Origin: Acidobacteriota bacterium
Lineage (GTDB): Bacteria > Acidobacteriota > Thermoanaerobaculia > Gp7-AA8 > JAHWKK01
DNA length: 64,000 nucleotides
Reading direction: 5' to 3'
Assembly: GCA_019347945.1 (NCBI GenBank)
Contig: JAHWKK010000008.1
Coordinates: 1-64,000 of the forward strand
Shown here one piece after another: positions 7,819 to 64,000 of this stretch (position 1 is its first letter; the number at the start of each line of letters is the position of its first letter). The position numbers and the translations under genes were made by a program. The notes beneath the pieces were generated by a model. That model ran no database searches. It saw only the letters and a program-made list of their open reading frames with translations, and was not told the DNA's origin.

Positions 7819-8148
7819 CTGTCGCCCGCTGAAGCGGGCTTCACAGAGAAGGGCATCGCGTTTCTGTCCCCCGGCTGAAGCCGGGGGCCAAGGCCTGACG
7901 CCGTCTTCGGCGGCTTCATCAGCTTCGTCGGTTCCTTCGATCCTTGGGAAATCGCTCGGTCGCGTTTTTCCTGTCGCCCGCTGAAGCGGGCTTCACGGAG
8001 AAGGGCATCGCGTTTCTGTCCCCCGGCTGAAGCCGGGGGCTAAGGTCTGACGCCGCCTTCGGCGGCTTTGTCAGCTTCGTCGATTACTTCGATCCTGGCG
8101 AAATCGCTCGGTCGCGTTTTTTCTGTCGCCCGCTCGGCGGGCTTGAGA
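7819..8148. repeat. 152-bp tandem repeat built of REP palindromes
   Basis: Two near-identical 152-bp units (7819-7970 and 7971-8122) are followed by a partial third (8123-8148). Each unit holds family B (CTGTCGCCCGCTGAAGCGGG), a family A palindrome (7868-7887; 8020-8039), a family C stem (GACGCCGCCTTCGGCGGC) and the tail AAATCGCTCGGTCGCGTTTTT. Differences between units are scattered point changes. No gene is seen between 7814 and 8516. Confidence 0.9.
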
Positions 8149-17944: not shown

Positions 17945-20086
17945 ATGGCGGATCCCGAGAAAATAGGCAAATACGAGATCGTCTCGGTTCTCGGCAAGGG
18001 CGGGATGGGCGTCGTTTACAAGGCGCGGGACCCGTTCATCGACCGGATCGTCGCGATCAAGACCATCCGGCTGACCGAGGAGATGGAGGAAGAAGATCTC
18101 GGCGCGCGGCTCGCGATGGAGGCGAAATCCGCGGGCAAGCTCCATCATCCGAATATCTGCACGATCTTCGATTTCGGAAAGCAGGACAACCTCAGTTTCA
18201 TCGTTCTCGAGTACGCGGAAGGGGGCGACCTCTCACAGGTCATCGACAAGAAGCTTCCGCTGTCGCTCCCGCAGAAAATCGACGTCATCGTCCAGATTGC
18301 CAGCGGTCTCGATTACGCGCATCGGATGGGAGTCGTTCATCGCGACATGAAGCCGGCCAACGTCCGCCTGACGAAGGACGGAACCGCGAAGATCATCGAC
18401 TTCGGTCTCGCGCGGTTCGACACGACGCGGCTCACCAAGACCGGCTTCATGAGCGGAACGATTGCCTACATGTCGCCCGAGCGCATCAACGGGGAGTCGG
18501 GGGAGAGCGATGACATCTTCGCGCTCGGGACACTCTCGTGGGAGCTTCTCACCTACGAGCGCGCGTTCAGCGGTTCGGCACCACCCGAAGTGATGTTCAA
18601 GATTCTCTCGACGAGCCCGCCGCTCCCCTCGACGATCATCGAGGCGCCCGACGAGCTCGACGCAATCATCATGCGCTGCATGGCGCGGGAGAAGACGGAC
18701 CGGTACCAGACGGCCGGCGACTTCGCGCTCGACCTCGAGGCACTGGTGCGCAGTCCATCCTTCCAGGCATTTCTGCAATCGGACGATCGCAGTACGCAGT
18801 TCCGTCAGTCGCTGGAGGACTGGGAAGAAGCGATGTCCCACAGCGGCCGTAGCTCGGATTCGCGGGTCCGGCGAACCAGCGGCCGGACGCGTCGTCCTGG
18901 CTCCACGTCGGGCCTTACCTTCGACACCGATGCTAAGACCGCCCTCGGAGCGGTTCACGATGGCGAGACGGTCATCGGTCCGGACGACCCGACGAGGATC
19001 AGTGCCACCAACACCTCCGATGGCACCGTGGTGAATCCGGCCGCCGAAGCGACCGTCGTCAACCGCGACACGGAGCCGACACGCGCCAACCGTGACGTCG
19101 CCCCGACCGTAGTCGAATCGAGGCTGCCGGGAGTCGATCCGACGATTGCGAGCGGCTCCTCCTCTTCGCGAGCTCGTGCGATCGTGATCACGCTCGTGGT
19201 TGCCGTGCTGGCCGCGGCGGCCCTCGGAATCGGAATGTCGGTCTTTTCGGGCGAAGAGACCGGTGAGCCCGTGCCTGCGGTAGTCGACACTACGGGTCCC
19301 GACGCCGCTCCACCGGGGATGGAAGTCGACGAACTCGACCGCGCCGAGCCGCAGCAGGAGGATCTGAGCGAGCTGATCGCGTGGGAGACACAAAGAAATC
19401 TCGCGGAGACCTTCCGCAGCGAGATTTCCGAGGGCTCGCTCAACACCTCGGAGCGCGCTCGGTTCAACGAAGCGGAACGGCTGTCGCGGCTGGCGCTCGA
19501 GGAGTTCGATCAGGGGAACGCCAGAGCGGGGGTCACTTACATGGCGGAGGCCGCATCGGGTTTCGAGAGTGTGTCTCAGGCATATGGCGAACGGAAGGCG
19601 CGGGAGGAGGAGCGTGCTGCGGCGGCGAGGGAAGCGCGCGCCCGCCCCACGCCTCCGCGCGAGACGACGCCGACGCGGACCGAGCCGGTCGGGCGGCAGC
19701 CCGACCCGGAGCCCGTGCGTGAGGTCGTAAGGCCGGCCCCGCCTCCGGTCGCGCCGGCGGGACCGACTCCCGCGCAGCTCGAGGCCGAGGCGCGGTCATT
19801 CATCGGCGACATCGCCGGCGCGTACAGCAGTCGGGACGGATCGTTTTTCGAGCGACGCTACGATGGATACAACGAGACGATCGGGAGAGCGATCCGGAAC
19901 GCCCCGTCGACGAATGTGAGGATAGAGGTGCTTTCGATCGACCTTAAGGGGGCGGACCGGGCGACGGCGAGCGTGCGGAGAACCGATACGTTTTCGGACC
20001 GGAACATCCCGCCGGCGGTGCAGACGCTGACCTACGAGCTCCGGCGTGCGTCCGACGGGTGGCATCTCGTTTCGTTCTCGCGCTGA
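17945..20086 (+). CDS. PknB-type Ser/Thr protein kinase, single-pass membrane protein
   Basis: 713 residues. Kinase domain 9-270: G-loop 'LGKGGMGVVYKA', 'VAIKTI' lysine, catalytic 'VVHRDMKPANV', 'IIDFGLARF', 'GTIAYMSPERI'. A Thr-rich linker follows with repeated T-V-V-N/E units ('GTVVNPAAEATVVNRDTEPT'), likely autophosphorylation or FHA-docking sites. Next comes one transmembrane helix (about 408-430). The extracytoplasmic part has a Pro-rich stalk and an NTF2/SnoaL-like C-terminal domain (about 620-713, 'SFIGDIAGAYSSRDGSFFE', 'YELRRASDGWHLVSFSR') instead of PASTA repeats. A TAGAAT box lies at 17924-17929. The FHA protein encoded at 28694 is a plausible reader, but that link is inferred. Confidence 0.93.
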   Translation: MADPEKIGKYEIVSVLGKGGMGVVYKARDPFIDRIVAIKTIRLTEEMEEEDLGARLAMEAKSAGKLHHPNICTIFDFGKQDNLSFIVLEYAEGGDLSQVIDKKLPLSLPQKIDVIVQIASGLDYAHRMGVVHRDMKPANVRLTKDGTAKIIDFGLARFDTTRLTKTGFMSGTIAYMSPERINGESGESDDIFALGTLSWELLTYERAFSGSAPPEVMFKILSTSPPLPSTIIEAPDELDAIIMRCMAREKTDRYQTAGDFALDLEALVRSPSFQAFLQSDDRSTQFRQSLEDWEEAMSHSGRSSDSRVRRTSGRTRRPGSTSGLTFDTDAKTALGAVHDGETVIGPDDPTRISATNTSDGTVVNPAAEATVVNRDTEPTRANRDVAPTVVESRLPGVDPTIASGSSSSRARAIVITLVVAVLAAAALGIGMSVFSGEETGEPVPAVVDTTGPDAAPPGMEVDELDRAEPQQEDLSELIAWETQRNLAETFRSEISEGSLNTSERARFNEAERLSRLALEEFDQGNARAGVTYMAEAASGFESVSQAYGERKAREEERAAAAREARARPTPPRETTPTRTEPVGRQPDPEPVREVVRPAPPPVAPAGPTPAQLEAEARSFIGDIAGAYSSRDGSFFERRYDGYNETIGRAIRNAPSTNVRIEVLSIDLKGADRATASVRRTDTFSDRNIPPAVQTLTYELRRASDGWHLVSFSR

Positions 20087-20108
20087 GACGCCGTTCGGAT
20101 GGTGAGGA

Positions 20109-20183
20109 TGGTGAGCCGGGTAGGGATCGAACCTACGACCAATTGGTTAAAAGCCAACTGCTCTACCACTGAGCTACCGGCCC
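20109..20183 (-). tRNA. tRNA-Lys (UUU)
   Basis: On the reverse strand a full cloverleaf reads GGGCCGG (acceptor), a D arm GCTC-AGTGGTA-GAGC, anticodon stem-loop GTTGG-CTTTTAA-CCAAT (anticodon TTT), T arm GTAGG-TTCGATC-CCTAC and CCGGCTC, with discriminator A and an encoded CCA (20109-20111). Acceptor pairing is complete with one G-U. Confidence 0.95.
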
Positions 20184-20374
20184 GGGTTTCGGTGATGCGG
20201 AGCGCTCGCGCAGATTAGTCGTGTGCAAACGCGAGTGTCAACGCGAACTTTCGAGGCAACGCCTTGTTCGGTGAAGTCATTCCGTGGCTGAGGAATGCGG
20301 ACGGCCGGTTCGCAGTTTGGCAGTCACGGATCGCGGGAAGCGGCGGATCATCGATTCCCCCCCGTTGAGCTGAA

Positions 20375-51712: not shown

Positions 51713-52103
51713 GTATCTGGTCGTCGGTGCTCACGCTCTCGCCGCCTACGGGCACGTCAGGGCCACGAAGGATCTCGATATCTGGATCCGTGCCGAGTCT
51801 TCCAATGCAGCGAGAATCATCGATTCGCTGAGAGACTTCGGTGCCCCGCTTCAGGATCTTTCCGACGACGATCTCGTGACACCAGGCATCGTCTTTCAAA
51901 TCGGTGTCGATCCGATTCGAATCGATATCATCACCTCCATTGACGGTGTCGAGTTCGAGGCGGCCTGGCCGGCCAGGACCACCGTGAGCCTCTTCGGTCT
52001 CGAGGTGCCGATCATCTCCAGGACTGATCTGATTCGAAACAAGAAAGCATCGGGCCGGCTTCAGGATCTCGCCGATGTGGAGAAGCTCGAGAGCCGCCAG
52101 TGA
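51654..52103 (+). CDS. Nucleotidyltransferase-fold protein (AbiEii/DUF6036-like)
   Basis: 149 residues. Nucleotidyltransferase signature 'EYLVVGAHALAAYGHVRATK' followed by 'DLDIWI' (G-x-x-A-x9-R-x-T-x-D-x-D), then 'IRIDIITSIDGVEFEAAWPA' and 'LIRNKKASGRLQDLADVEKL'. It resembles the AbiEii/MNT-type proteins used in toxin-antitoxin or phage-abortive systems. Start at 51654 or 51660 (M-A-M-S). Possibly a two-gene unit with the preceding small protein. It lies convergent to pstB. Confidence 0.8.
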   Translation: MAMSRDFRDLLSAFNDRKVEYLVVGAHALAAYGHVRATKDLDIWIRAESSNAARIIDSLRDFGAPLQDLSDDDLVTPGIVFQIGVDPIRIDIITSIDGVEFEAAWPARTTVSLFGLEVPIISRTDLIRNKKASGRLQDLADVEKLESRQ

Positions 52104-52120: not shown

Positions 52121-52801
52121 TCAGGACAGCCGAAGAACGGCATCGGCGAGGCGGGATGCCTGCGCTTCGTCGTGTGTCACCAGAATGACCGTTCGTTTGC
52201 CACGACACGAGAGAATCGTGTTCTCGATGCGTTCGGTCGAGACGGCATCGAGCGCGGAGGTCGGTTCGTCCATCAGCAGAATCTCGGGCTGTCCGGCGAG
52301 CGTCCGGGCCACCGCGAGCCGTTGCTGCTGGCCAACCGAGAGCTCGGAGGCATCGGCTTTCAGGCGATCGTGCACCTCGTTCCACAGATGCGCGGCTCGG
52401 AGACAGTCCTCGACCGTTCCGGCGCCGTCGTGACGGGGAACGATTCCGAGGCGCTTCGCGGCGAAGACGACGTTCTTCGCGATCGATCCCGGAAAAGTGA
52501 CCGGCTGCTGGAAGACGATGCCGACTCGGCGGCGCAGATCGTCGACGTCGACGCCCCGGCCCCGCACGTTCTCGCCACAGACCCGGACCTCGCCCGAGAC
52601 GCGAAGATCCGGGGTCAGGTCGATCAGGCGATTGATGCAGCGGAGAAGCGTCGTCTTACCGACTCCGGAGGGACCGAGAACGCATGTGATCCGATGCTTC
52701 TCGAACGTCGCATCGAGGTCGGTCAGGATCGGTCGGCCGGTGCGGTCGCTGACCGACAGCCCGAGAATCTCCACCGATGCGTTCAGCCGCTCGTCAGCCA
52801 C
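52121..52801 (-). CDS. pstB: Phosphate-type ABC transporter ATP-binding protein PstB
   Basis: 226 residues. Walker A 'CVLGPSGVGKTTLLRCINRL', Q-loop 'GIVFQQPVTFPGSIAKNVVF', signature 'ELSVGQQQRLAVARTLAGQ' and Walker B 'ILLMDEPTSALDAVS', ending in the H-loop 'ILVTHDEAQAS'. The 'PxTFPGSIxxNV' pattern is PstB-specific. Slightly shorter than the usual ~250. Last gene of the operon, 8-bp overlap with pstA. phoU, usual in pst operons, is absent. Confidence 0.93.
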   Translation of the reverse strand: MADERLNASVEILGLSVSDRTGRPILTDLDATFEKHRITCVLGPSGVGKTTLLRCINRLIDLTPDLRVSGEVRVCGENVRGRGVDVDDLRRRVGIVFQQPVTFPGSIAKNVVFAAKRLGIVPRHDGAGTVEDCLRAAHLWNEVHDRLKADASELSVGQQQRLAVARTLAGQPEILLMDEPTSALDAVSTERIENTILSCRGKRTVILVTHDEAQASRLADAVLRLS

Positions 52802-53645
52802 GGCGGGCCTCCTCGTGAATCCGTACGCGAAGTGGAAGCGACATCAGTGATGCGGTCATGACCATCAGAAGCAGCACGCTCGCCGCACCCCACATGCTGA
52901 CCGAAGCGGCCTGGTCGAAGCTGTCCTGCGCGAGGACGAAAATGTGGTACGGGAGTGCGAGGACCGGACTCTCCCTGATGCCGTGGGGAATCGCGGGACC
53001 CGAAAAGATCGCGGCGGTGAACATGATCGGCGCGGTCTCCCCGGCTGCTCGCGCGAGTCCGAGAAGTGTGCCTGAGACGAGACCCCCCGCCGCACGCGGG
53101 ATCAGGACATCCCGGACGACTTCGCTCTTTCTCAGTCCGAGCCCGTGTGCGGCTTCGATCGTGGTCACGGAGATCGTCTTCAGCTTCTCGATGAACGCAA
53201 CGGTCAGGGTCGGGAGAATCATGACGGCCAGTACGATCCCGCCGGCGAGCCACGATTTTCCGAGCCCTCCCGCGCGAACGAGCAGGGCCAGCCCGACGAG
53301 CCCGAAGATGATCGAGGGAATCCCATTGAGGGACTGAAGAGCGACGTCGAGCAGATTCTTCGCCCTCTCCGACCGGATGTAGAAGACCGAGAGGATGCCC
53401 GTTCCCGCTGCGACTGGCACGGCAAGCGCGATCGCCGTTCCCACGAGAATCGCCGTTCCGAGGATGTGTCCCGCGACCCCGCCCGAACTGCCGCTGCCGG
53501 TGAGGACGGTCGTGAAGAAGTCGATCCCGAGCGCGCTCCAGCCGCGCACCGCGACGATGATGAGGATCGACGCGAGAGTCGAGACGGTCAGAAGAATTCC
53601 GATCGTGCAGACCACGGACAGCATCCGGTCGCGGAACTTTCTCAC
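52794..53645 (-). CDS. pstA: Phosphate-type ABC transporter permease PstA
   Basis: 283 residues and six membrane helices. Binding-protein-dependent permease signature 'EAAHGLGLRKSEVVRDVLIP' (EAA loop), with family context 'LNGIPSIIFGLVGLALLV' and 'ILPTLTVAFIEKLK'. Overlaps pstB by 8 bp and pstC by 4 bp (ATGA). Confidence 0.92.
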   Translation of the reverse strand: MRKFRDRMLSVVCTIGILLTVSTLASILIIVAVRGWSALGIDFFTTVLTGSGSSGGVAGHILGTAILVGTAIALAVPVAAGTGILSVFYIRSERAKNLLDVALQSLNGIPSIIFGLVGLALLVRAGGLGKSWLAGGIVLAVMILPTLTVAFIEKLKTISVTTIEAAHGLGLRKSEVVRDVLIPRAAGGLVSGTLLGLARAAGETAPIMFTAAIFSGPAIPHGIRESPVLALPYHIFVLAQDSFDQAASVSMWGAASVLLLMVMTASLMSLPLRVRIHEEARRG

Positions 53646-54547
53646 GCCGCCACCTTCTGGAAGAGCCAGCGACGAACACCGCCCGCGAGGAACGTCAGCG
53701 CGATCACCCCTGCGAACAGGATCAGCGCAAGCGCCATCAGCGCCGAGGTGTGCACCGGATCTCCGCTCGCAATGTTGACTTCCGAGCCTCCGAGCTTCGA
53801 GGTGATCGTCTGGCCGGGCTGCAGCAGCACGCTGAGATCGAACAGGGAAGAGGGGAGGCGATTGTCGGCACGACCGACCACGAGAAAAACCGCGATCGTC
53901 TCGCCCGCCGCCCGACCCAGCGCGAGAAGAACCGCCGCGATGATTCCCGGGAAGGCTCTCGGAAGAATCGCCGCGCCGATCGTCTCAGCGCGCGTCAGTC
54001 CGAGTCCCCTGGCAGCTTCCCTCGCCCTGCGGGGAACCGCCGCCAGCGCATCCTCGGAGAACGTCGTCACCGTCGGCAGAATCATGATCGACAGAAGAAT
54101 GCCGCCGGTCAGGATCGTGTCGCCCTGCGCGATGTTCAAACCGAGGCTCGCCCCGGAGTCGGCGACGAGAGGCCGGAGAAATGCGATTCCGAGGAGGCCA
54201 TAGACCACCGACGGTACGCCCGCGAGAAGCTCGACCAGAACCTTCAGATGGAGACGGACCCGGCCGTGCGCAATCTCGGAGATGAAAAGCGCGCTGGTCA
54301 GCCCGAGTGGAACCGCGATGATGATGGCGATGAGCGAGACGGCTGCAGTGCCGAAGATCATCGCGGCCGCACCCCAACTCTCCTGGCGATAGGCCCAGTC
54401 GGCTTCGGTAAGAAACGCGAAGCTTTCCCGTGCGAGGACCGGCCATCCGGTCACCAGGAGATAACCCCCAACAGTCAGCACCGCCGCCAGGGTGACCAGC
54501 CCCATGGCGATCGACCAGAGCCGGATCCAATCGAGGGGGCGTTTCAT
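53642..54547 (-). CDS. pstC: Phosphate-type ABC transporter permease PstC
   Basis: 301 residues and six membrane helices. 'SFAFLTEADWAYRQESWGAA' (PstC N-terminal region), 'LLAGVPSVVYGLLGIAFLRP', 'ILPTVTTFSEDALAAVPRRA' and the EAA loop 'REAARGLGLTRAETIGAAIL'. Overlaps pstS by 4 bp (ATGA). Likely forms the channel with PstA. Confidence 0.92.
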   Translation of the reverse strand: MKRPLDWIRLWSIAMGLVTLAAVLTVGGYLLVTGWPVLARESFAFLTEADWAYRQESWGAAAMIFGTAAVSLIAIIIAVPLGLTSALFISEIAHGRVRLHLKVLVELLAGVPSVVYGLLGIAFLRPLVADSGASLGLNIAQGDTILTGGILLSIMILPTVTTFSEDALAAVPRRAREAARGLGLTRAETIGAAILPRAFPGIIAAVLLALGRAAGETIAVFLVVGRADNRLPSSLFDLSVLLQPGQTITSKLGGSEVNIASGDPVHTSALMALALILFAGVIALTFLAGGVRRWLFQKVAA

Positions 54548-55467
54548 CGAGGGCCATCCGTCCCGGCCGGTTCTGACGGTGCCAGATACCCGTGTTTCGC
54601 GACGATCTCACGCCCTCGTTCGGAGAGGGCGAAATCGATCAGCTTCTGTTCCTCGGGATCGGGCGGTCCGTTCGTGATCAGCAGCAGTGGCCTTCGAATG
54701 GGGTAAGCGTCCCTTTGGATGGCTTCGTGAGTCGGTTCGACGATCTCGCCGTTCTCTGCAACGATGCCGAGCGCGTCGATGCCGGGAGAGTCCGCGACCC
54801 AGGATGCCGACAGTTGCGTGATCGCGCCACCCGTCGTCGCGGCTTTGGTCCGTCCCTCCTCGTTGCCTCCGACCTGGGAGTGCGAGATCGTCGGTGCATC
54901 CCCGTCGGGATAGAGCCAGTCGGCGAAGACTTCCCAGGTGCCACGCCCCGGTTCCTTGTCCAGAAACACGATCGGTGAGTCCGGTCCGCCGATCTCCTTC
55001 CAGTTGGTGATTTCCTTTTCGTAGATTTCGCGAACCTGCTCGCGTGTGACGTGGCGGACCCTACCGTTCCAGACGTTCTCGTTGACCGCGAGCGCCACGG
55101 CATCGATGCCGATGACGAATGCGTGAAAATCGGCATCCGGATATCGCTCACGGTCGGATCTCGAAAGCGGCTTGCTCGACATGCCGATCCCGGCCGAACC
55201 GTCGGCGACCCCGGAGATTCCACCCGAAGAACCCCCCTGTGTGTCGACGGTGATCATCATTTGGTTCTCGCGCGTGAGGATGTTCGCGATCTCGGTGACG
55301 ACCGGGTTGACCGTGGTCGAACCGTTGACGCGGAGAACGTTACGAGGGTTGTGGGCCGAGCCTTCCGGGCTCGAGTCGCCACCGCATGCCGCGACGATGA
55401 TCGCCGGGATGAATGCTCCGGCGATCCGGGCGACTTTGCGCGCTCGCTTTTTGCGCGCTTCCGACAT
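54544..55467 (-). CDS. pstS: Phosphate-type ABC transporter binding lipoprotein PstS
   Basis: 307 residues. Lipoprotein signal with lipobox 'VAACGGD' (Cys28). The oxyanion-binding layout is visible: 'NVLRVNGSTTVNPVVTEIAN' (the S-T-T-V loop that binds phosphate), 'VDTQGGSSGGISGVADGSAG', 'IGMSSKPLSRSDRERYPD' and 'FLDKEPGRGTWEVFADWL' (R-x-x-S/T-G/T-like, here G-R-G-T). This is the PstS subfamily that binds phosphate and can also bind arsenate. Its ATG starts immediately after the radical-SAM gene's stop, so the two are almost certainly cotranscribed. Confidence 0.92.
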   Translation of the reverse strand: MSEARKKRARKVARIAGAFIPAIIVAACGGDSSPEGSAHNPRNVLRVNGSTTVNPVVTEIANILTRENQMMITVDTQGGSSGGISGVADGSAGIGMSSKPLSRSDRERYPDADFHAFVIGIDAVALAVNENVWNGRVRHVTREQVREIYEKEITNWKEIGGPDSPIVFLDKEPGRGTWEVFADWLYPDGDAPTISHSQVGGNEEGRTKAATTGGAITQLSASWVADSPGIDALGIVAENGEIVEPTHEAIQRDAYPIRRPLLLITNGPPDPEEQKLIDFALSERGREIVAKHGYLAPSEPAGTDGPR

Positions 55468-57957
55468 TCAGCAGCACCCCGCTTCGTCTGTGCAGCAGGC
55501 ATATCCGACCCGGTCTTCCCCCGGCTCCAGAATCGCGAAAAAGTTCCGATAGGGAGGACGCGACAGCTTCGCGACGGTGTCGGTGCAGATCTCGTAGGGC
55601 TCATTGCGGGGAAACTGATGTCCTTCCTCGTCGATGAACGCCTTGCCGGGGCCGAGATAAACGGCGTGATGTCCCTTGAAAACGCAGCCTTCGGTCTTTT
55701 CGAACTTCCAGCCGCGTACGGTGATCGAGTAGAAGGGATAACCCTCGACATCCTTCCAGTAGACCTTCTTCAGCACCTCGAGTCCGTAGAAGCCGGCGCG
55801 CTCGAGCTCGGCGAGGAACTCCTCTTCGGTGAGCGCACCCACGAGACACTCTCCCCACAGCTGCGGGTTGGTCATCAGATGTGGCGGAACCTTTTTCTCG
55901 GAGACGATGTCGGAGATCAGAATCCGGCCGTGGTCCTTCAGAATCCTCCAGATGCCCTCGAAGACGCGTGGTTTGTCGGGGGAGAGATTGACAACGCAGT
56001 TGGATGTGACGAGATCGACGCTCCTGTCATCGACGGGGATGTCTTCCAGGAAGCCCTTCCGGAACTCGACTGAGTCGAACCCCAGCGCTTCGGCGACTCT
56101 CGGCTTGTTCTCGATCGCCACCGAGAGCATCTGGTCGGTCATGTCGACGCCGATCGCCTTCCCCGTGGCGCCGACGTACTTCGCTGCGATGAAGACGTCG
56201 ATTCCCGCACCCGACCCAAGGTCGACGACGGTCTCGCCCTCCTGAATGCCGGCAGAGGCCATCGGCGAGCCGCAGCCGTAGAAGCGGTCGAGGACATCCT
56301 GCGGAATGTGATCGGTCGAGGACGTATCGTATTTGGTCGGGCAGCAGAGATCAGCCTGAGGTGTCTCGGCCGCTTCGCCGTAGAACTCGCGAACCTTCGC
56401 TCGCGGTTTGTCGACGTCGAACGAGAGAACGCAATTCGAGTGGAGCGTCAGAACCGGCTCCTCCGCGAGGGCGCCATCGGCAGTCTCGCAGGAGATTGCG
56501 CCGGCGCCCATCGCATGGAGAACGAGAGGTGCGGAGTTTCCCGACTTCAGATTGCGCCGGGCGAGCTTCTCTTCCCCGAGATCGGTCATGACGCGTTCGA
56601 TCAGGCCGAGCGTGACCGGATAGTAGGGATCCTGCCCCATGAAGTTGCCGGTGAAGCACCACGCATGTTCGAGGTCCCCGCCGCCGGTGAAAAAGCGGAA
56701 CGGGTCGCTCGTGACGCTGGAGTTCCGTTGAAGAGTCGCGGCTCGCAGCGCGGTGACGATCGGGGAGGTCTCGATCACTTCGGCAAGCGACTGGGTGAGG
56801 ATGTCTCCGCAGGCGAGAGCCGATTCGTTTGCCAGCGCAGCGGATGGGTAGACCTTGCCGTCGGCGTAAACGCAGAGCGAGTCCCATCCGGCATTTCCGA
56901 GGTCGTATTTCACTCCGGGCACTCCATTGACGCGTCGCTTGACGGCTTCGAGGTTGTCGAGCACGGTGTTCTCGGCCCGGGACGCATCGACGACTTTCAT
57001 CACCGCGGAGAGGAGCGCTTCGTTTTCAGGGAAAAAGCCGTTGCCGGATTCGATGGCGCGTCCTCGTCGATGGCTCCACATCAGGTGCTGGCTGGCCGCC
57101 CCGGTATCGCGCACGATCGACGGGATTCTCGGAAGCTCGTCGAGATTCTCCTCGGTGGTCACGGTCGTCAGCGAGGTCTCGAAGCCGAGCTCGGTGAGGA
57201 TGCGGGCGCCTCGTAGCGCTTTCTCGAAGGTTCCTCTGCCGCGAATCGGGTCGTTGGTCTCGGCGCAGGCTCCGTCGATCGATACCTGGAACTTCACTTT
57301 TTCGCGGTCGAGAGTCTCGAGACCCTCCCGGATCGCGCCTGCAAAGAGCGTTGCGTTGGTGAGGATCACGACTTCGAGATCTCGGGTTTCCGTCGCGTGC
57401 CGGACGATCGTGGGGAGGTCGCGTCTCATGAATGGCTCGCCGCCCGTGATGAAGAGCCGTTCGAGTCCCATCGAGCACGCGTCATCGATGATTGAGATCA
57501 GCTTTTCCTGCGGCAGTCCGCCGATTCCTCGCGGCCCCGAATCGACGAGACAGTGGGCACAGGTGAGGTTGCAGTTGTTGTTGACCTGAAGCCAGAGCTC
57601 GCGAAGACCATCAGGCTGGATGAGCTGGTCACGTCCCGGATAGGGAGGGCGTGCAAAGGGCGCGTCCGAGAGCATCCCTGAGCGATCGAGCGCCGTGAGG
57701 AACGAGTGAACGTGCAGCCACGACTTCCCCGCCTCGAATCCGGTCTCGCTGGCATGCTTCGCGACGAGCCTCGAGAATGTCACCGGCTGATCGTTCTGCG
57801 ATCGCTCGATCTCATCGAGCAGGCTGGCACCCGCCGCCTCCACCGCGATCCAGTTCGGAGCTTCGTGATCGACGGCATAGTAAACGTCGCCCTTCGTGAA
57901 GCGGTGCAGATTGGGCAGGAACAGCGGCGTGCGTTCGTTGAGAACGGTCATAGACAA
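55468..57957 (-). CDS. Radical SAM/SPASM-like enzyme fused to an ArsM-type arsenite methyltransferase
   Basis: 829 residues. 1-110: PqqD/RRE-like winged region ('YYAVDHEAPNWIAVEAAGAS'). 120-330: radical SAM core with C129-x3-C133-x2-C136 ('NNCNLTCAHCLV') and 'RLFITGGEPFMRRDL'. 360-510: Cys-rich SPASM-like part (C362, C383, C434, C490, C509). 520-760: ArsM fold with SAM motif 'VVDLGSGAGIDVFIAAKYVG', 'AIGVDMTDQML', 'TSNCVVNLSPDKPRVFEG' and 'LWGECLVGALTEEEF'; the As(III)-binding cysteines map to C538/539, C562, C654 and C704, with C654-C704 spaced 50 as in ArsM. 760-829: extra tail ending CC(821-822) and GCC(827-829). Context: upstream DUF2064 transferase, downstream pst genes. Likely makes an arsenical beyond simple methylation; the product is unknown. 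Confidence 0.87.
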   Translation of the reverse strand: MSMTVLNERTPLFLPNLHRFTKGDVYYAVDHEAPNWIAVEAAGASLLDEIERSQNDQPVTFSRLVAKHASETGFEAGKSWLHVHSFLTALDRSGMLSDAPFARPPYPGRDQLIQPDGLRELWLQVNNNCNLTCAHCLVDSGPRGIGGLPQEKLISIIDDACSMGLERLFITGGEPFMRRDLPTIVRHATETRDLEVVILTNATLFAGAIREGLETLDREKVKFQVSIDGACAETNDPIRGRGTFEKALRGARILTELGFETSLTTVTTEENLDELPRIPSIVRDTGAASQHLMWSHRRGRAIESGNGFFPENEALLSAVMKVVDASRAENTVLDNLEAVKRRVNGVPGVKYDLGNAGWDSLCVYADGKVYPSAALANESALACGDILTQSLAEVIETSPIVTALRAATLQRNSSVTSDPFRFFTGGGDLEHAWCFTGNFMGQDPYYPVTLGLIERVMTDLGEEKLARRNLKSGNSAPLVLHAMGAGAISCETADGALAEEPVLTLHSNCVLSFDVDKPRAKVREFYGEAAETPQADLCCPTKYDTSSTDHIPQDVLDRFYGCGSPMASAGIQEGETVVDLGSGAGIDVFIAAKYVGATGKAIGVDMTDQMLSVAIENKPRVAEALGFDSVEFRKGFLEDIPVDDRSVDLVTSNCVVNLSPDKPRVFEGIWRILKDHGRILISDIVSEKKVPPHLMTNPQLWGECLVGALTEEEFLAELERAGFYGLEVLKKVYWKDVEGYPFYSITVRGWKFEKTEGCVFKGHHAVYLGPGKAFIDEEGHQFPRNEPYEICTDTVAKLSRPPYRNFFAILEPGEDRVGYACCTDEAGCC

Positions 57958-57999
57958 CCTCCGGATCTGGAATTGGACGACGGACGGGGGAGTGGAACT

Positions 58000-58731
58000 T
58001 CAGCGGCTGGGCGGGCCGCGCAGAACTACGCTGGAGAGGAAGGATTGAAGCGGGATCTGTTGCTGCCCGGTGAGAAAAACGACGGGTGCGAGCGCGGCGC
58101 GCAGCTCCGCTGCGAGCGCCCGGAGGGGTCCGGTCGCGTGGCGTATGAACAGATCGAGGGCGTCTGCCAGGCTGTCGATGTCGCTCAGCGGCTCGGTCTC
58201 GCGACAGGTTTGGCCGACGAGCTCGAGCTCGCGACGAAGCCAGTCGCCCGCCTCGCTCGTGAAGGTCGGCAGATTCTCCCATCGGACGGCGGTCGCTGAG
58301 GGGAAAGCGGCGAGATAGAAGCCACCGTCGGGTGAGCGGCCGAGGACCGCAGCGCTCTGGTTCGTCTCGACCAGATCGCGGGCGTCCTCGATGATCCGTC
58401 TGGTGATCTGGGGGACATCGCCGGCGAGAAGGACCACCCTGTCGAACCCTGCCTGTCGGGCGCAGCGGATGGTGAACGCGATCTGGTCCGGCAGCGACCG
58501 GCTGGCGGCCGAGAACAATGGGCCTGTCGACCCGGATGTGACGCGCGTGCCGTCGGGTGTGAGATCGGAGGTGAAAAGCTCAGTTCGCGCAATCGAGGCG
58601 GCACATCGCTCGACGGCTCGCGAGATCCGTCTGCTGAATCCGCGAGGCAGCGATTTCCGCCGCTCCTCCGAAGACTGGATGTCCCGGAAGAGAAGGATCG
58701 CTGTTCGCCTTCCTCGTCTGATCGCGCCCAC
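58000..58731 (-). CDS. DUF2064 (TIGR04282-like) nucleotidyl/glycosyl-transferase-like protein
   Basis: 243 residues. A GT-A-like fold of the CofC/TIGR04282 type: 'RTAILLFRDIQSSEERRKSL', 'RQAGFDRVVLLAGDVPQITR' (the D-x-P of the family) and 'AAVLGRSPDGGFYLAAF' (G-P-a-e-D-G-G-Y-Y-L-like). That family is named for association with rSAM/selenodomain proteins and occurs in arsenosugar-type clusters. The N-terminal nucleotide-binding part is divergent: the usual P-V-P-G-x-x-K-T-R is not recognisable. First gene of the operon, 42 bp before the radical-SAM fusion gene. Probable sugar or nucleotidyl transferase in the same pathway (inference). Confidence 0.75.
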   Translation of the reverse strand: MGAIRRGRRTAILLFRDIQSSEERRKSLPRGFSRRISRAVERCAASIARTELFTSDLTPDGTRVTSGSTGPLFSAASRSLPDQIAFTIRCARQAGFDRVVLLAGDVPQITRRIIEDARDLVETNQSAAVLGRSPDGGFYLAAFPSATAVRWENLPTFTSEAGDWLRRELELVGQTCRETEPLSDIDSLADALDLFIRHATGPLRALAAELRAALAPVVFLTGQQQIPLQSFLSSVVLRGPPSR

Positions 58732-59064: not shown

Positions 59065-59161
59065 TTGATGCTTCGCCAAACTCCCCCTGAGCGTGCAAGA
59101 ATCGGGTCTGGTGAATACCCTGCTGGCCGACGATGTTGCGTTTTCACAACTGGAGGATCTG

Positions 59162-60733
59162 ATGAGCCGAGACCCCGACAAGGTGACCGTGGCGAGATTC
59201 GAAGAGGAAGGCACGACCGGAGTCTCTCAGGGCGATCTCGGGATCTTTGCCCATCGGTTCGCGGAGGACACGAGCTTCGCGCTCACCTTCGACGACGTCC
59301 TGCTCGTGCCGGGCCGCTCTGAGCTTCATCCGAATTTCGTCGAGACAACAACCCGGCTGACCCGCGACATCCATCTGAACATTCCGGTGATCTCCGCCGC
59401 GATGGATACGGTAACCGAGGCGCGGCTCGCGATCGCGATGGCACAGCACGGCGGGCTCGGAGTGATTCACAAAAACATGTCGATCGAGCAGCAGGCCGAA
59501 GAGGTGGACAAGGTCAAGCGCTCGGAAGCCGGGATGATCGTCGATCCGGTGACGATGCGCCCCGGCCAGCGGATCTCGGAAGCTCTCGAGGTGATGGCGA
59601 AATACAAGATCTCCGGCGTACCCGTGACCGACGAGCAGGGCAAGCTCGTCGGAATCCTGACCAACCGGGACCTTCGGTTCGAGACCCGTTTCGATCTTCC
59701 GATCTCGGAGCGGATGACGCGAGAGAACCTCGTCACCGTTCCCGTCGGAACGACGCTCGAGCAGGCGCAGGACGTTCTCCATCAGCACCGGATCGAGAAG
59801 CTGCTCGTCGTCGACGACGGTGGGGACCTGAAGGGTCTGATCACGGTCAAGGACATCCAGAAGGCGCGGAAGTACCCGAGCGCGGCGAAGGACAGGCTCG
59901 GCCGGCTGATCTGTGGCGCCGCCGTCGGTGTCGGGAAGGACGGTCTCGAGCGCGCCGAGGCGCTGATCGCGGCCAAGGCGGACATCATCGTCATCGACTC
60001 GAGCCATGCCCACTCGAAGGGAGTCATCGATACCATCGTCGAGTTCCGCAAGCTCCATCCCGACGTTCAGCTGATCGGCGGGAACGTCGCGACCGGAGAG
60101 GGGACGCGGGCTCTGATCGAAGCGGGCGTCGACGCCGTCAAGGTCGGGATCGGGCCGGGCTCGATCTGCACCACCCGAGTCGTGGCCGGTGCAGGAGTTC
60201 CTCAGCTGACCGCTGTGATGCAGTGCGCACGGGTGGCTGACGAGTTCGACATTCCCGTGATCAGCGACGGCGGTGTGAAGTTTTCCGGCGACGTCGTCAA
60301 GGCGCTCGCCGCCGGAGCGAGCACCGTCATGATCGGATCGCTTTTCGCGGGCACGGATGAAGCGCCCGGGGAAACGATCCTCTTCCGGGGAAGAACCTTC
60401 AAGGCGTATCGGGGAATGGGTTCGATCGGAGCGATGCAGTCGGGCTCGCGCGACCGCTACTTCCAGGACGAGCAGGACGACGCCACGAAGCTGGTTCCGG
60501 AAGGAATCGAAGGGAAGGTTCCGTACAAGGGATCGCTCGGAGCGATGATCCCGCAGCTCATCGGCGGTCTGCGCTCCGGTATGGGACTGACCGGGTCGAA
60601 AAACATCGAAGACCTCCGAACGAAGTCGCGATTCGTCCGGATCACGACCGCCGGTCACCGGGAGAGCCACGCGCACGACGTCGTCATCACGAAGGAAGCG
60701 CCGAACTACCGGATCGAGAATCCCGATTCGTGA
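59162..60733 (+). CDS. guaB: Inosine-5'-monophosphate dehydrogenase
   Basis: 523 residues from the ATG at 59162, which has GGAGG (59152-59156) 5 nt before it; earlier in-frame starts lack one. Barrel start '[20 protein letters not shown]', tandem CBS domains (about residues 115-235, '[20 protein letters not shown]', '[20 protein letters not shown]'), catalytic Cys in '[20 protein letters not shown]', '[20 protein letters not shown]' and flap '[11 protein letters not shown]'. Oxidises IMP to XMP, the committed step to GMP. The N-terminus is about 30 residues longer than usual. Overlaps trmJ by 4 bp. Confidence 0.96.
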
Positions 60734-61482
60734 ACGGGCGGCGGGCCCGCTTCGTTCTGGTCGAGCCTCAGCACGGCGGCAATGTCGGCGCGGTTGCCCG
60801 CGTGATGTGGAATTTCGGGCTCGATGATCTCGCGATCGCCGGCGAAGTTCCGAGCCTCGAGGGAGAAGCGGAATGGTGGGCGACCGGTGGCGGTGAGGTT
60901 CTTCGAAACCTCAGGCGATTCGATTCGCTGGAGGACGCGGTCGCCGACTGCCACCTCGTCGTCGGAACGACGGCGGCCCGCGCCCGGGAGATGATGCCCG
61001 CGCTGGAGCCGGAAACGCTGGCCGAGGAGGTGCGCAGCCTCGGTGAAGGAGAGCGGGCCGCGATCGTTTTCGGACGGGAGGCGAACGGTCTCACGAGCTC
61101 CGAGCTCGCCCTCTGTGGCCGCACGGCGACCATCCCGGCGTCGGCAGAGTTTCCGACGCTCAACATCGCGCAGGCCGCCGGCATCTTCGCCTGGGAGATC
61201 TCGAAAAGCGGTGCGACCGAAAGCCGGAGGGAGGGTGAAAAGCGGGCGCCGCACGAGATGGTCGAGCGGCTTCACAGGCGAGGGAAGGAGCTGCTCGAGA
61301 GATCGGGATTTCTGAATCCGCAGAACCCGGATGAGATCCATGACGAGCTCCGGCGACTCCTCGCGCGCGCGGACCCGACCGAGCGCGAGGTGATGATCCT
61401 GATCGCCGCGGTTCGAAAGCTGTCCTGGTGGGTCGACGGGAGCGACGATTCACCAAATACATGCGGTCCCCTCGGCTCGTGA
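60730..61482 (+). CDS. trmJ: SPOUT tRNA methyltransferase, TrmJ-like
   Basis: 250 residues from a GTG overlapping guaB (GTGA). SPOUT knot motifs: '[19 protein letters not shown]' (motif 1), '[20 protein letters not shown]' (motif 2) and '[17 protein letters not shown]' (motif 3), in TrmJ order. It modifies the ribose of position 32 in tRNA anticodon loops. The C-terminal tail (about 190-250) is helical and basic. Distinguishing TrmJ from other TrmH-family members by motifs alone is good but not certain. Confidence 0.82.
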
Positions 61483-61630
61483 CCCGGGAGCCCAGGTGGA
61501 CGCGGGTTCCTTTTCTGCGATCGTGACTGGGCGTCGCGACGCGGAGCTCGCCTCGGGAGCCTTCGGGATCGTCAGCAAGCCTACCCATTCCTCGGACCTT
61601 GAAACGTTCGTCCCACTTCTCCATCAGGGG

Positions 61631-61636
61631 TAAAAT
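61631..61636 (+). promoter_or_regulatory. Candidate -10 box (TAAAAT) before the compositionally odd ORF
   Basis: The host-style box in GGGGTAAAATGATG lies 15 nt before the ATG at 61652 and has the same look as at 51503 and 50184. This suggests that at least the 5' end of the next gene belongs to the host. Confidence 0.4.
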
Positions 61637-61651
61637 GATGAGAGGCCCCAA

Positions 61652-63448
61652 ATGCGCGACGGACGGAACTCAAGTCTCAAGAAAGCACTCACATTGGCAG
61701 GGGCCATATTGCTCTCAGGAAGCGTAATGAGCGACGCATTCGCGGAACGCCGCCGAGCGGTACGTCGCCCTAGCCCGCCGACGAGTATTGATTATGTGCT
61801 TCCCGGCGTCAATGGTCAGAGCGATCTTGCATTCACGAACCACGGGGTAGAGGATGAGACAGTGAAGGCTTGTCTTGTTGCTGAGAACCGTTCTTACAGT
61901 TGCCGTTCTCTCACCATCAGTCCTGCGGCTACTGTCCGTACGACCGCGAACACTCTGTTCTTCGATCACGACGGTATGGTCACCCTCGACGCAAGCCCCT
62001 CCATCGAGGCGCGCGCTGACGGCACTGTGGCGAAGCGGCTTGAGGAGCTCTTGCAGAACAACGAGTTCGGCAACCTCGCAGGCATGAGCACCAGCACGAT
62101 CACCCTGGCGACTCTCGAGAAGCCGGTCACGTTCGAAGGAGTCCTGCGGGACGAATTCGGCAGCCCACTCAAACGACAGAACATCACACTCAACGCCTAC
62201 ACACACCAGACCAGCACCATCCAAGACCTCTTCGAGACACCCATCCCAGACCAACTCGTGAGCATCGAACTATTGCCACTAGGCCACAACGACCTCTGGG
62301 CACACCTCAACACCCCAGAAGGACGGGTGGAGATGCAAAGCGAGTTCATGGAAGGATGGATCCCAAACGTCAACCCACAGACCACCGCCATCCTAAAGAA
62401 CAGCACGCGCAAAAACGAGACCCTGGTGGTGCAGTACACGTCATTCCCAGAGAACCAAGATAATCAGGACGTGTTCATCCCGCACAACCAAGTCATCCCG
62501 CCACTCCAGACACACACGTTCAACCTACCATTCAGCAAGGGAAGCGCCTTCGTCCAACAGTTCCAACCAATCCACGCATACACCATCACCAATGGAACAA
62601 TCGTCCCAGCAATGACACCAGCGCAGGCAGCGAACGCAGACTGGGGACTACCCGGCGAGGGAAAAGTACGACACAACATCAGCATCAACGATGTGAACGC
62701 GGGAGACACCATCACACTCCTCAACATCATCAACATCCCAATCACCGGAACAGTGACCACAACCAACGACGAAGGAACAACAATACACACACAAGCAGTG
62801 AACCTGCCAGTATACGGCAACAACAGCTACACCGCACCAGCAAACGGCAGAATAACACTAGAACTCAACGACAACGACGAGCCGACCGACAGAGTACCAA
62901 CAGCACTACTCACCGCAACAAACACGCTCGGGACAAAACTACCGTTTAGGTACGAAGCGCCAGAGAAAATCGTAAAGGTGACTGGAGAGGAGTATGTGGC
63001 GAAGTGGTTGGACCCCTTGAAGGAACAGCATTTCTTCATCAGCTATGACGAGATGTCTGCCGCCATCAACGGCAGCAGCATCAACAGAAGTTACGTTAAT
63101 GACATCGTCGATGCCGTATGGGCGGATCCTAGGGTACAAAACGGCTTTGGGACAAAAGAAAACGTTAAACAGTGGTTCTTCAACAGAGTAGACCAGAATC
63201 CTGCAAACTCAGAATTCTGCAAATCGGAGAAAGCAACTCAGCAAGCAGGATTTGGCTTGCGAACTCGTGACGGCATCAACTGCGGACCTGTTGATTTCAA
63301 GCCTGACGCTCCAAACATTGAAGCGCTCTTTAATACGTGGCGCGAGTTCTACATTAGCGACGTAGAAGGAGACCCAACAAAATATGGTGGATCGCCCTCT
63401 GCAGGTCCGGATTTGAACACAAAACCCCCTTGGTATGTCGGACAATAA
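61652..63448 (+). CDS. Large secreted protein of unknown function with mosaic base composition
   Basis: 598 residues. Signal-peptide-like N-terminus ('LTLAGAILLSGSVMSDAFAE') followed by a basic R-R-R-A-V-R-R-P-S-P-P segment. The rest is beta-rich, with many Asn and Thr ('TFEGVLRDEFGSPLKRQNIT', 'TAILKNSTRKNETLVVQYTS', 'TITLLNIINIPITGTVTTTN'), resembling an extracellular or surface protein. The last 130 residues are different again ('YEAPEKIVKVTGEEYVAKWL', 'VNDIVDAVWADPRVQNGFGT'). The + strand of about 62200-62940 is extremely poor in T (8 to 13 percent in lines I counted), unlike the flanks. No family recognised. The reading frame is continuous, so it may be one real gene, a fusion, or an assembly join. 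Confidence 0.6.
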   Translation: MRDGRNSSLKKALTLAGAILLSGSVMSDAFAERRRAVRRPSPPTSIDYVLPGVNGQSDLAFTNHGVEDETVKACLVAENRSYSCRSLTISPAATVRTTANTLFFDHDGMVTLDASPSIEARADGTVAKRLEELLQNNEFGNLAGMSTSTITLATLEKPVTFEGVLRDEFGSPLKRQNITLNAYTHQTSTIQDLFETPIPDQLVSIELLPLGHNDLWAHLNTPEGRVEMQSEFMEGWIPNVNPQTTAILKNSTRKNETLVVQYTSFPENQDNQDVFIPHNQVIPPLQTHTFNLPFSKGSAFVQQFQPIHAYTITNGTIVPAMTPAQAANADWGLPGEGKVRHNISINDVNAGDTITLLNIINIPITGTVTTTNDEGTTIHTQAVNLPVYGNNSYTAPANGRITLELNDNDEPTDRVPTALLTATNTLGTKLPFRYEAPEKIVKVTGEEYVAKWLDPLKEQHFFISYDEMSAAINGSSINRSYVNDIVDAVWADPRVQNGFGTKENVKQWFFNRVDQNPANSEFCKSEKATQQAGFGLRTRDGINCGPVDFKPDAPNIEALFNTWREFYISDVEGDPTKYGGSPSAGPDLNTKPPWYVGQ

Positions 63449-63455
63449 ACCGTTT

Positions 63456-63466
63456 CTTTTTTAAAT
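63456..63466 (+). promoter_or_regulatory. Archaeal-type TATA box candidate
   Basis: TTTTTTAAATA is the only such AT-rich box in the window. It lies about 22-32 nt before the ATG at 63488, the distance at which archaeal leaderless genes are initiated. No bacterial -10/-35 pair or SD is seen. Confidence 0.4.
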
Positions 63467-63487
63467 AGCGTTTTCTATGACCTTTCG

Positions 63488-64000
63488 ATGGTGGGAAAGA
63501 GTTGGAGAATCCTAGTTAGTTCTGCGTTTCTCCTAGTGCTATTATTGTTTCAAGCTCAAGAAGTGAATGCTTGTGATGGAGATGGTATTTGCGAGCCGGG
63601 AGAAAGTCTTGACTTTTGCGGTGATTGCACCACTTCGTATTGCACCGATAGCACCTGCGATCCTGGAAAGGGAGAGGATATATGCGGCAGTAGCACACAC
63701 TGTCCAAGCGACTGTGGTCTCTGTCCTGGAGACACTTGTATCTCCTCAAGCCAGTGCCCACTCGGTTACTCCTGTTGCGGCAACACCTGTACATCTGCCG
63801 GCACCACGGAAGCCTGCACCAATGACATGCAGCGCGAGTGCACGGTTAATGGTTGGAGCGCATGCACCTGCATCGATGGCTCCACCCGTCAAGGCTCTTG
63901 CCAAACAGGGTTCATCCAGACGTGCACTGGCGGTCAGTGGGGAAGTTGCACATACAACTGCAACCAACAAAACGCATGCGCAAGAGAAAGCTGTCGGTAC
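63488..64000 (+). CDS. Cys-rich secreted protein, truncated by the window end
   Basis: The frame is open from the ATG at 63488 to the last base (171 codons, no stop reached). Signal peptide 'WRILVSSAFLLVLLLFQAQE' with cleavage near N-A-C. The mature part contains 'CDGDGICEPGESLDFCGDC', then many Cys in short motifs such as 'CSSTHCPSDCGLC'-like and 'CPLGYSCCGNTC' repeats. The C-D-G-D-G-I-C-x-P-G-E motif is familiar from DPANN archaeal and related surface proteins. No function can be assigned. Base composition (about 50 percent GC, AT-ending codons) is unlike the host. Confidence 0.75.
   Translation, partial: MVGKSWRILVSSAFLLVLLLFQAQEVNACDGDGICEPGESLDFCGDCTTSYCTDSTCDPGKGEDICGSSTHCPSDCGLCPGDTCISSSQCPLGYSCCGNTCTSAGTTEACTNDMQRECTVNGWSACTCIDGSTRQGSCQTGFIQTCTGGQWGSCTYNCNQQNACARESCRY

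Follow-up and report, generated by a model that had tools for sequence, protein, structure and literature searches.

A radical-SAM/ArsM fusion and an adjoining oxyanion importer in an Acidobacteriota operon: a candidate arsenosugar-type pathway

Operon layout and the fusion protein

The first 64,000 nucleotides of contig JAHWKK010000008.1 from a soil-type Acidobacteriota bacterium (assembly GCA_019347945.1; this whole stretch is termed the window) carry a minus-strand operon in which a fusion of a radical S-adenosylmethionine (SAM) protein with the arsenite methyltransferase ArsM is followed by the genes for a Pst-type oxyanion transporter. The six genes run from 58731 to 52121 in the order DUF2064 (CofC-like) transferase (58000..58731), radical-SAM/ArsM fusion (55468..57951), pstS, which encodes a lipoprotein-type oxyanion-binding protein (54544..55467), the permease genes pstC (53642..54547) and pstA (52794..53645), and pstB, which encodes a short ATPase of 226 amino acids (52121..52801). 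An earlier note on this DNA had described the operon, and all of its genes are found at the positions given there, each matching its family. PstC scores 244.6 bits against TIGR02138 (above the cut-off of 196.45), PstA falls slightly below the cut-off of TIGR00974 (182.4 against 193.45 bits), and PstB gives 230 bits with TIGR00972, the cut-off of which is 343.2. The pst set is complete (S-C-A-B) and has no pho genes with it. Adjacent genes overlap by 4, 4 and 8 bp, and the first base of pstS is the base right after the TGA of the fusion gene (a gap of 0 bp), as the note had stated; its largest gap of 42 bp, however, becomes one of 48 bp between the DUF2064 and fusion genes when the fusion starts at ATG 57951. 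This start, six bases past the proposed TTG, is the more likely one because a GGAGG ribosome site lies just upstream and relatives also begin with MTVL, and the protein would then have 827 rather than 829 residues. Cysteine positions are numbered from the TTG.

Profiles, an AlphaFold2 model and Foldseek divide the fusion into a PqqD/RRE-like N-terminus, a radical-SAM part and ArsM. The radical-SAM domain (PF04055) spans residues 125-276 (57130..57585) and contains a CX3CX2C motif formed by Cys 129, 133 and 136 (CNLTCAHC, 57550..57573), the [4Fe-4S] cysteine triad, which is invariant in all 81 fusion rows counted. A complete ArsM, including its C-terminal part, begins at about residue 515, with the domain itself assigned to residues 522-829 (55471..56394) by profiles, structure alignment and Foldseek. 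The best arsenite methyltransferase model is NF008823, at 232.5 bits (below the NCBIfam cut-off of 263), and the score with NF038099 (ArsM) is 158.6, below the cut-off of 400. The four ArsM arsenic-site cysteines lie at positions 538, 562, 654 and 704, of which the last three align with both CmArsM and CrArsM and Cys 538 with CrArsM (5evj) only; all four are conserved in clades A and B of the fusion family. The claim that the fusion has kept the radical-SAM cysteines and every arsenic-binding position of ArsM is thereby upheld, in the latter case by alignment with solved ArsM structures.

The AlphaFold2 model, built with 32 relatives, has a pLDDT of 86.9 and a pTM of 0.85. When its C-terminal half was submitted to Foldseek the top matches were all ArsM structures (E down to 2e-22), whereas the N-terminal half was nearest to the peptide maturase CteB (5wgg), in a match that spans the PqqD/RRE-like start, and also matched SkfB. 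Residues 1-100 of the window protein have no Pfam match, and one relative gives a weak match to PqqD (E 0.063). Among radical-SAM models, those of the Rv1681, StsB and mycofactocin types score best. Such matches would be expected if the radical-SAM half were a maturase of ribosomally synthesised and post-translationally modified peptides, with the ArsM half as its methyltransferase partner and no role in organoarsenical synthesis. We regard this as quite improbable: the operon is too tightly packed to accommodate a precursor gene, its genes being separated by 48 and 0 bp or overlapping by 4-8 bp, a full set of SPASM cysteines is not conserved, and the ArsM cysteines, together with the arsenosugar-type neighbours described below, point to arsenic.

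Fusion relatives, their neighbours and the importer slot

A single scan of GTDB genomes yielded 189 stretches encoding relatives of the fusion, 80 of which were kept. The family is present in Acidobacteriota, Gemmatimonadota, Omnitrophota, Nitrospirota and others. In the tree, the window sequence falls in a clade of 15 rows with support of 100, comprising Acidobacteriota, Gemmatimonadota and one metagenome-assembled genome (MAG) labelled Chloroflexi; beyond it lie Omnitrophota and Nitrospirota, and then a large distant group, mostly of Desulfobacterota. The distant group (L058-L063 and L065-L097; 39 loci) has proteins of about 1000-1100 amino acids (e.g., L075:9683-12901) that are without the first ArsM cysteine pair; the one member scanned has a C-terminal DUF5714, and some adjoin TIGR04282/TIGR04283-type genes.

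Neighbours of the fusion relatives pass the cut-offs of TIGR04282 and TIGR04283, both of which are curated as arsenosugar biosynthesis glycosyltransferases, and further neighbours encode purine-nucleoside phosphorylase (PNP), flavin adenine dinucleotide (FAD) oxidoreductase, VTT-domain, DUF547 and AhpD-type proteins. Clusters containing ArsS in the same phylum have an overlapping set of neighbours, with ArsM as a separate gene. Of 297 genomes examined in the phylum, 45 encode an ArsS above cut-off; the four fusion-bearing genomes tested encode none. Because the neighbours are of arsenosugar type and these four genomes have no ArsS above cut-off, the fusion most likely takes the place of both ArsM and ArsS. 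The transferase of the window is a diverged member of its group: it passes the Pfam cut-off for PF09837 (41.5 against 25.8 bits), but its 49 bits with TIGR04282, where the cut-off is 134, place it only weakly in that arsenosugar transferase family. The link drawn earlier between the transferase and arsenosugar-type pathways consequently holds for the family neighbourhood across phyla, but not for the linked protein itself, which is below the TIGR04282 cut-off and has lost a motif (see below). A DUF2064 gene also adjoins the fusion in L013, L018 and L006. Elsewhere in the window genome, unlinked to the operon, are a TIGR04283 protein above cut-off and a second DUF2064 protein (contig C7), which has the motif as KGSVKSRF.

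PNP genes lie directly behind the fusion in two Omnitrophota (L036:4585-5313 and L038:12148-12996). The encoded enzymes could remove adenine from an arsenic nucleoside or serve as arsenate reductases; in vitro reduction of arsenate by PNP has been reported (PMC12608789).

The gene following the fusion encodes an oxyanion importer in 11 of the 16 close relatives with sequence there. Two of these importers are Pst (the window and L018) and nine are permeases of the PiT family (PF01384; G045, L019, L021, L022, L024, L025, L026, L027 and L064). In L030 a divergent PiT gene is found upstream of the fusion, and in Omnitrophota and one Vicinamibacteria MAG PiT is close to the fusion in L033, L039 and L043 and 4.7 kb off in L034. 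A few PiT matches, among them those in L013 (at 2596), L018 (at 2551) and L020 (at -426), were left uncounted as artefacts of a seed open reading frame (ORF) that extended out of frame into the fusion. Few loci have the pst genes in exactly this arrangement, namely the window and L018, an Acidobacteria contig that ends inside pstC. The earlier note had made its reading depend on conservation of the neighbourhood in relatives, and here the answer is divided: the six-gene order recurs in L018 only, as far as that contig reaches, but the importer slot does recur, with a different transporter. In L013 (G030:C82) a PiT gene at about 7908-7981 has been cut in frame to 22 codons, its first and last ones, and the PP2C gene behind the remnant is intact and is the same PP2C as in relatives; the remnant may reflect a recent gene loss or an assembly fault.

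An importer lies within 1.5 kb of the fusion in 12 of 17 close relatives, as against three of 36 ArsS loci (Fisher p 7e-6), and in 15 of 27 when the next clades are included (p 5e-5 against the same three of 36), although both p values are too good because the rows are related and kinship is uncorrected. Chance adjacency of fusion and importer was considered and rejected, as transporters of two unrelated families occupy the slot repeatedly in several phyla. The three ArsS loci in question (L172, L174 and L183) have PiT directly beside a true ArsS (TIGR04167). PiT proteins linked to the fusion and those linked to ArsS share a branch that excludes the three housekeeping PiT in the tree (100/100); with so small a housekeeping sample, this no more than suggests a dedicated subfamily.

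The transported ion and the proposed pathway

The window genome (3.72 Mb, with completeness rated at 99.65%) also has a separate pstSCAB-phoU set on contig C19, followed by response-regulator and kinase genes, so that the operon pst cannot be equated with the housekeeping pst. No PiT was found in this genome. The operon PstS shares 51% identity overall with that of L018, and both proteins differ from 30 comparison proteins at three positions that we take, from E. coli PstS numbering, to be oxyanion-site residues. Position 99, where the 'SR' motif has its invariant ligand Arg, is Lys in both (codon 55171..55173 in the window) and Arg in 30 of 30; position 171 is Lys in both and Arg in 27 of 30; and position 175 is Arg in both and Ser in 27 of 30. 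The last two positions delimit the segment KEPGR (54943..54957), which replaces the usual RxxxS before GT. Ligand positions were assigned by alignment with solved PstS; a structural model from the two sequences gave a pLDDT of 33, and the pocket assignment rests on the alignment instead. The linked proteins thus lack the Arg/Arg/Ser of phosphate-type Pst, and judged from this alignment the altered pocket means that the linked PstS does not simply duplicate the housekeeping protein.

It is conceivable, though on balance unlikely, that the importer supplies phosphate rather than arsenate, either because the pathway consumes phosphate or because a selective Pst keeps phosphate entering while arsenate is excluded. 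The phosphate may then be used in nucleoside phosphorolysis by PNP, which adjoins the fusion in L036 and L038, or in phosphate-bearing arsenosugars or arsenolipids. There is precedent in the Pst known beside arsenite-oxidase genes, one of which favours phosphate at least thousandfold over arsenate (PMC3954881). However, an ordinary pst-phoU set is already present in the genome, the linked PstS alters pocket residues that phosphate-type PstS keep, and relatives place PiT in the slot. PiT is not known for excluding arsenate, since E. coli PitA is a low-affinity phosphate/arsenate transporter (PMC8552651). An altered pocket would also suit a ligand other than orthophosphate, such as sulfate or an arsenical, methylated or bound to sugar, that the cell salvages. 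The Lys/Lys/Arg of both linked PstS is compatible with this, as is the finding that the linked PiT are as near to the model of the CysP sulfate permease as to that of PitA. We nevertheless judge such an anion improbable, as the overall PstS fold family is phosphate-type and phosphate or arsenate is the simplest choice for a ligand that PstS and PiT share.

The absence of ars efflux genes from the window, reported in the earlier note, extends to the whole genome for ArsB, which was not found, and for Acr3, with none above cut-off; there is likewise no second clear ArsM, the next match to an ArsM model scoring 79 bits. Two weak Acr3-like genes (34-36 bits, well short of the cut-off) lie 9 kb apart in the window genome (G000:C31:10225-11016 and 19542-20330) and are probably other transporters of that superfamily. 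Because no Acr3 or ArsB exceeds the cut-off, methylation could be the only arsenic defence of this genome, and with the ArsM cysteines intact the operon might serve plain detoxification by methylation, the radical-SAM half being inactive and the adjacency of the transporter accidental. This is very hard to credit, as the radical-SAM motif does not vary within the family, importers repeatedly adjoin the fusion in several phyla, and the importer in the operon would be left unexplained.

Collectively, these results lead us to consider it marginally probable that the operon specifies a pathway to an organoarsenical of the arsenosugar type and equips it with a dedicated anion importer, the ion being probably arsenate. 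The proposal of the earlier note that uptake is tied to organoarsenical synthesis gains from the arsenosugar-type neighbourhood and the recurrent importer, but not from the exact pst order, which is seen only in the window and, as far as its contig reaches, in L018. Its suggestion that phosphate starvation might gate arsenate entry finds no support. A more specific version, that a specialised Pst with a pocket changed from that of a phosphate importer feeds arsenate as raw material to a single-protein enzyme forming carbon-arsenic bonds, with a PiT permease doing likewise in other lineages, is put forward only tentatively. In such a scheme, the altered PstS and PstCAB would import arsenate or another arsenic oxyanion, and arsenate would then be reduced to As(III) before methylation by the ArsM half of the fusion. 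The radical-SAM half would then attach another group derived from SAM, most probably the 5'-deoxyadenosyl that ArsS also transfers; arsenic is adenosylated by radical-SAM enzymes in arsenosugar biosynthesis (PMC12159101), and the ArsS of Synechocystis works with ArsM (PMC8552651). The output of the fusion would be a dimethylarsinoyl nucleoside, made without release of the toxic trivalent intermediate, and the transferases (the linked DUF2064 protein and the TIGR04283 protein encoded elsewhere in the genome) would act on the product in later steps. In relatives, PNP could strip adenine, much as its cousins do with methylthioadenosine. Gene content, its conservation and the residues are what the sequences show directly; the chemistry and the order in which it proceeds, the choice of arsenate as the ion and the nature of the end product are inferred.

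Several observations weigh against a pathway of this kind. No importer lies beside the fusion in five close relatives (L013, L023, L028, L029 and L031), and the linked PiT belong to a family that can carry phosphate or sulfate, the PitA and CysP models giving equally low scores with them. The radical-SAM half of the fusion, with its PqqD/RRE-like N-terminus, bears more resemblance to peptide-maturase radical-SAM proteins, and the match to the ArsS model TIGR04167 amounts to 66.1 bits against a cut-off of 300, aligned over residues 115-262 only; identification of the fusion as an ArsS by sequence was rejected on that score. In addition, the DUF2064 protein of the window is without the N-terminal PGxVKTRL motif seen in Omnitrophota relatives (L035 and L037).

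Arsenate is usually seen as a poison that slips into cells through phosphate transporters. If the arsenosugar-type reading is true, the operon would be evidence of purposeful arsenic uptake, and would suggest that organoarsenicals in soils and groundwater have a source besides algae and cyanobacteria, encoded by a short and testable gene set. The fusion family would also offer a natural single-chain ArsM/radical-SAM enzyme, which is handy for studying the hand-over of toxic trivalent intermediates.

With regard to its surroundings, the operon is flanked by a divergent inosine monophosphate (IMP)-dehydrogenase-like gene (plus-strand ORF 59093-60733) and by a convergent DUF6036-like gene that ends at 52103. 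The G+C content of the operon region (61-65%) is similar to that of adjoining sequence; further away, at 61000-64000, it drops from about 63% to 52% and the AT skew rises, which may mark a foreign segment. Promoter and terminator scans of the region gave nothing above chance, and an Rfam scan returned sub-threshold matches only. The fusion is encoded by none of the viral contigs scanned, and a plasmid search found no record covering 80% of the query.

Comparison with known systems

Pairings of arsenic genes with oxyanion importers are already known, namely Pst beside arsenite oxidase genes (PMC7533571, PMC3954881) and pitA beside arsinothricin genes (PMC8552651), as is the production of arsenosugars by ArsS with ArsM (PMC8552651, PMC12159101). 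No description of the fusion, of its pairing with an importer, or of a single-chain fusion combined with an importer slot and a changed PstS pocket was found among the open-access papers searched, which miss much of the arsenosugar literature.

One of the closest parallels is the ArsM-ArsS arsenosugar pathway (Synechocystis; TIGR04167 with TIGR04282 and TIGR04283), which likewise combines ArsM with a radical-SAM enzyme and which in the same phylum has TIGR04282, TIGR04283, FAD oxidoreductase, VTT-domain, DUF547 and sometimes PiT genes as common neighbours. Here, by contrast, a single protein is involved, its radical-SAM half comes from another subgroup, and the importer is often the direct neighbour. 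An organoarsenical is likewise built by ArsM together with a radical-SAM enzyme in Burkholderia gladioli, which has the arsinothricin cluster arsQML and, in the same arsenic island, pitA (PMC8552651). However, the two enzymes of that cluster are separate proteins, ArsL transfers a 3-amino-3-carboxypropyl group, an exporter (ArsQ) is present and pitA is divergent. Arsenic islands that have pst/pho genes beside aioBA (PMC7533571, PMC3954881) resemble the present case in having a second, arsenic-locus pst besides the housekeeping set. Their context is arsenite oxidation under phoB/phoR regulation, whereas in the window operon pst comes after an ArsM/radical-SAM fusion, is unaccompanied by pho genes and encodes a PstS with a changed pocket.

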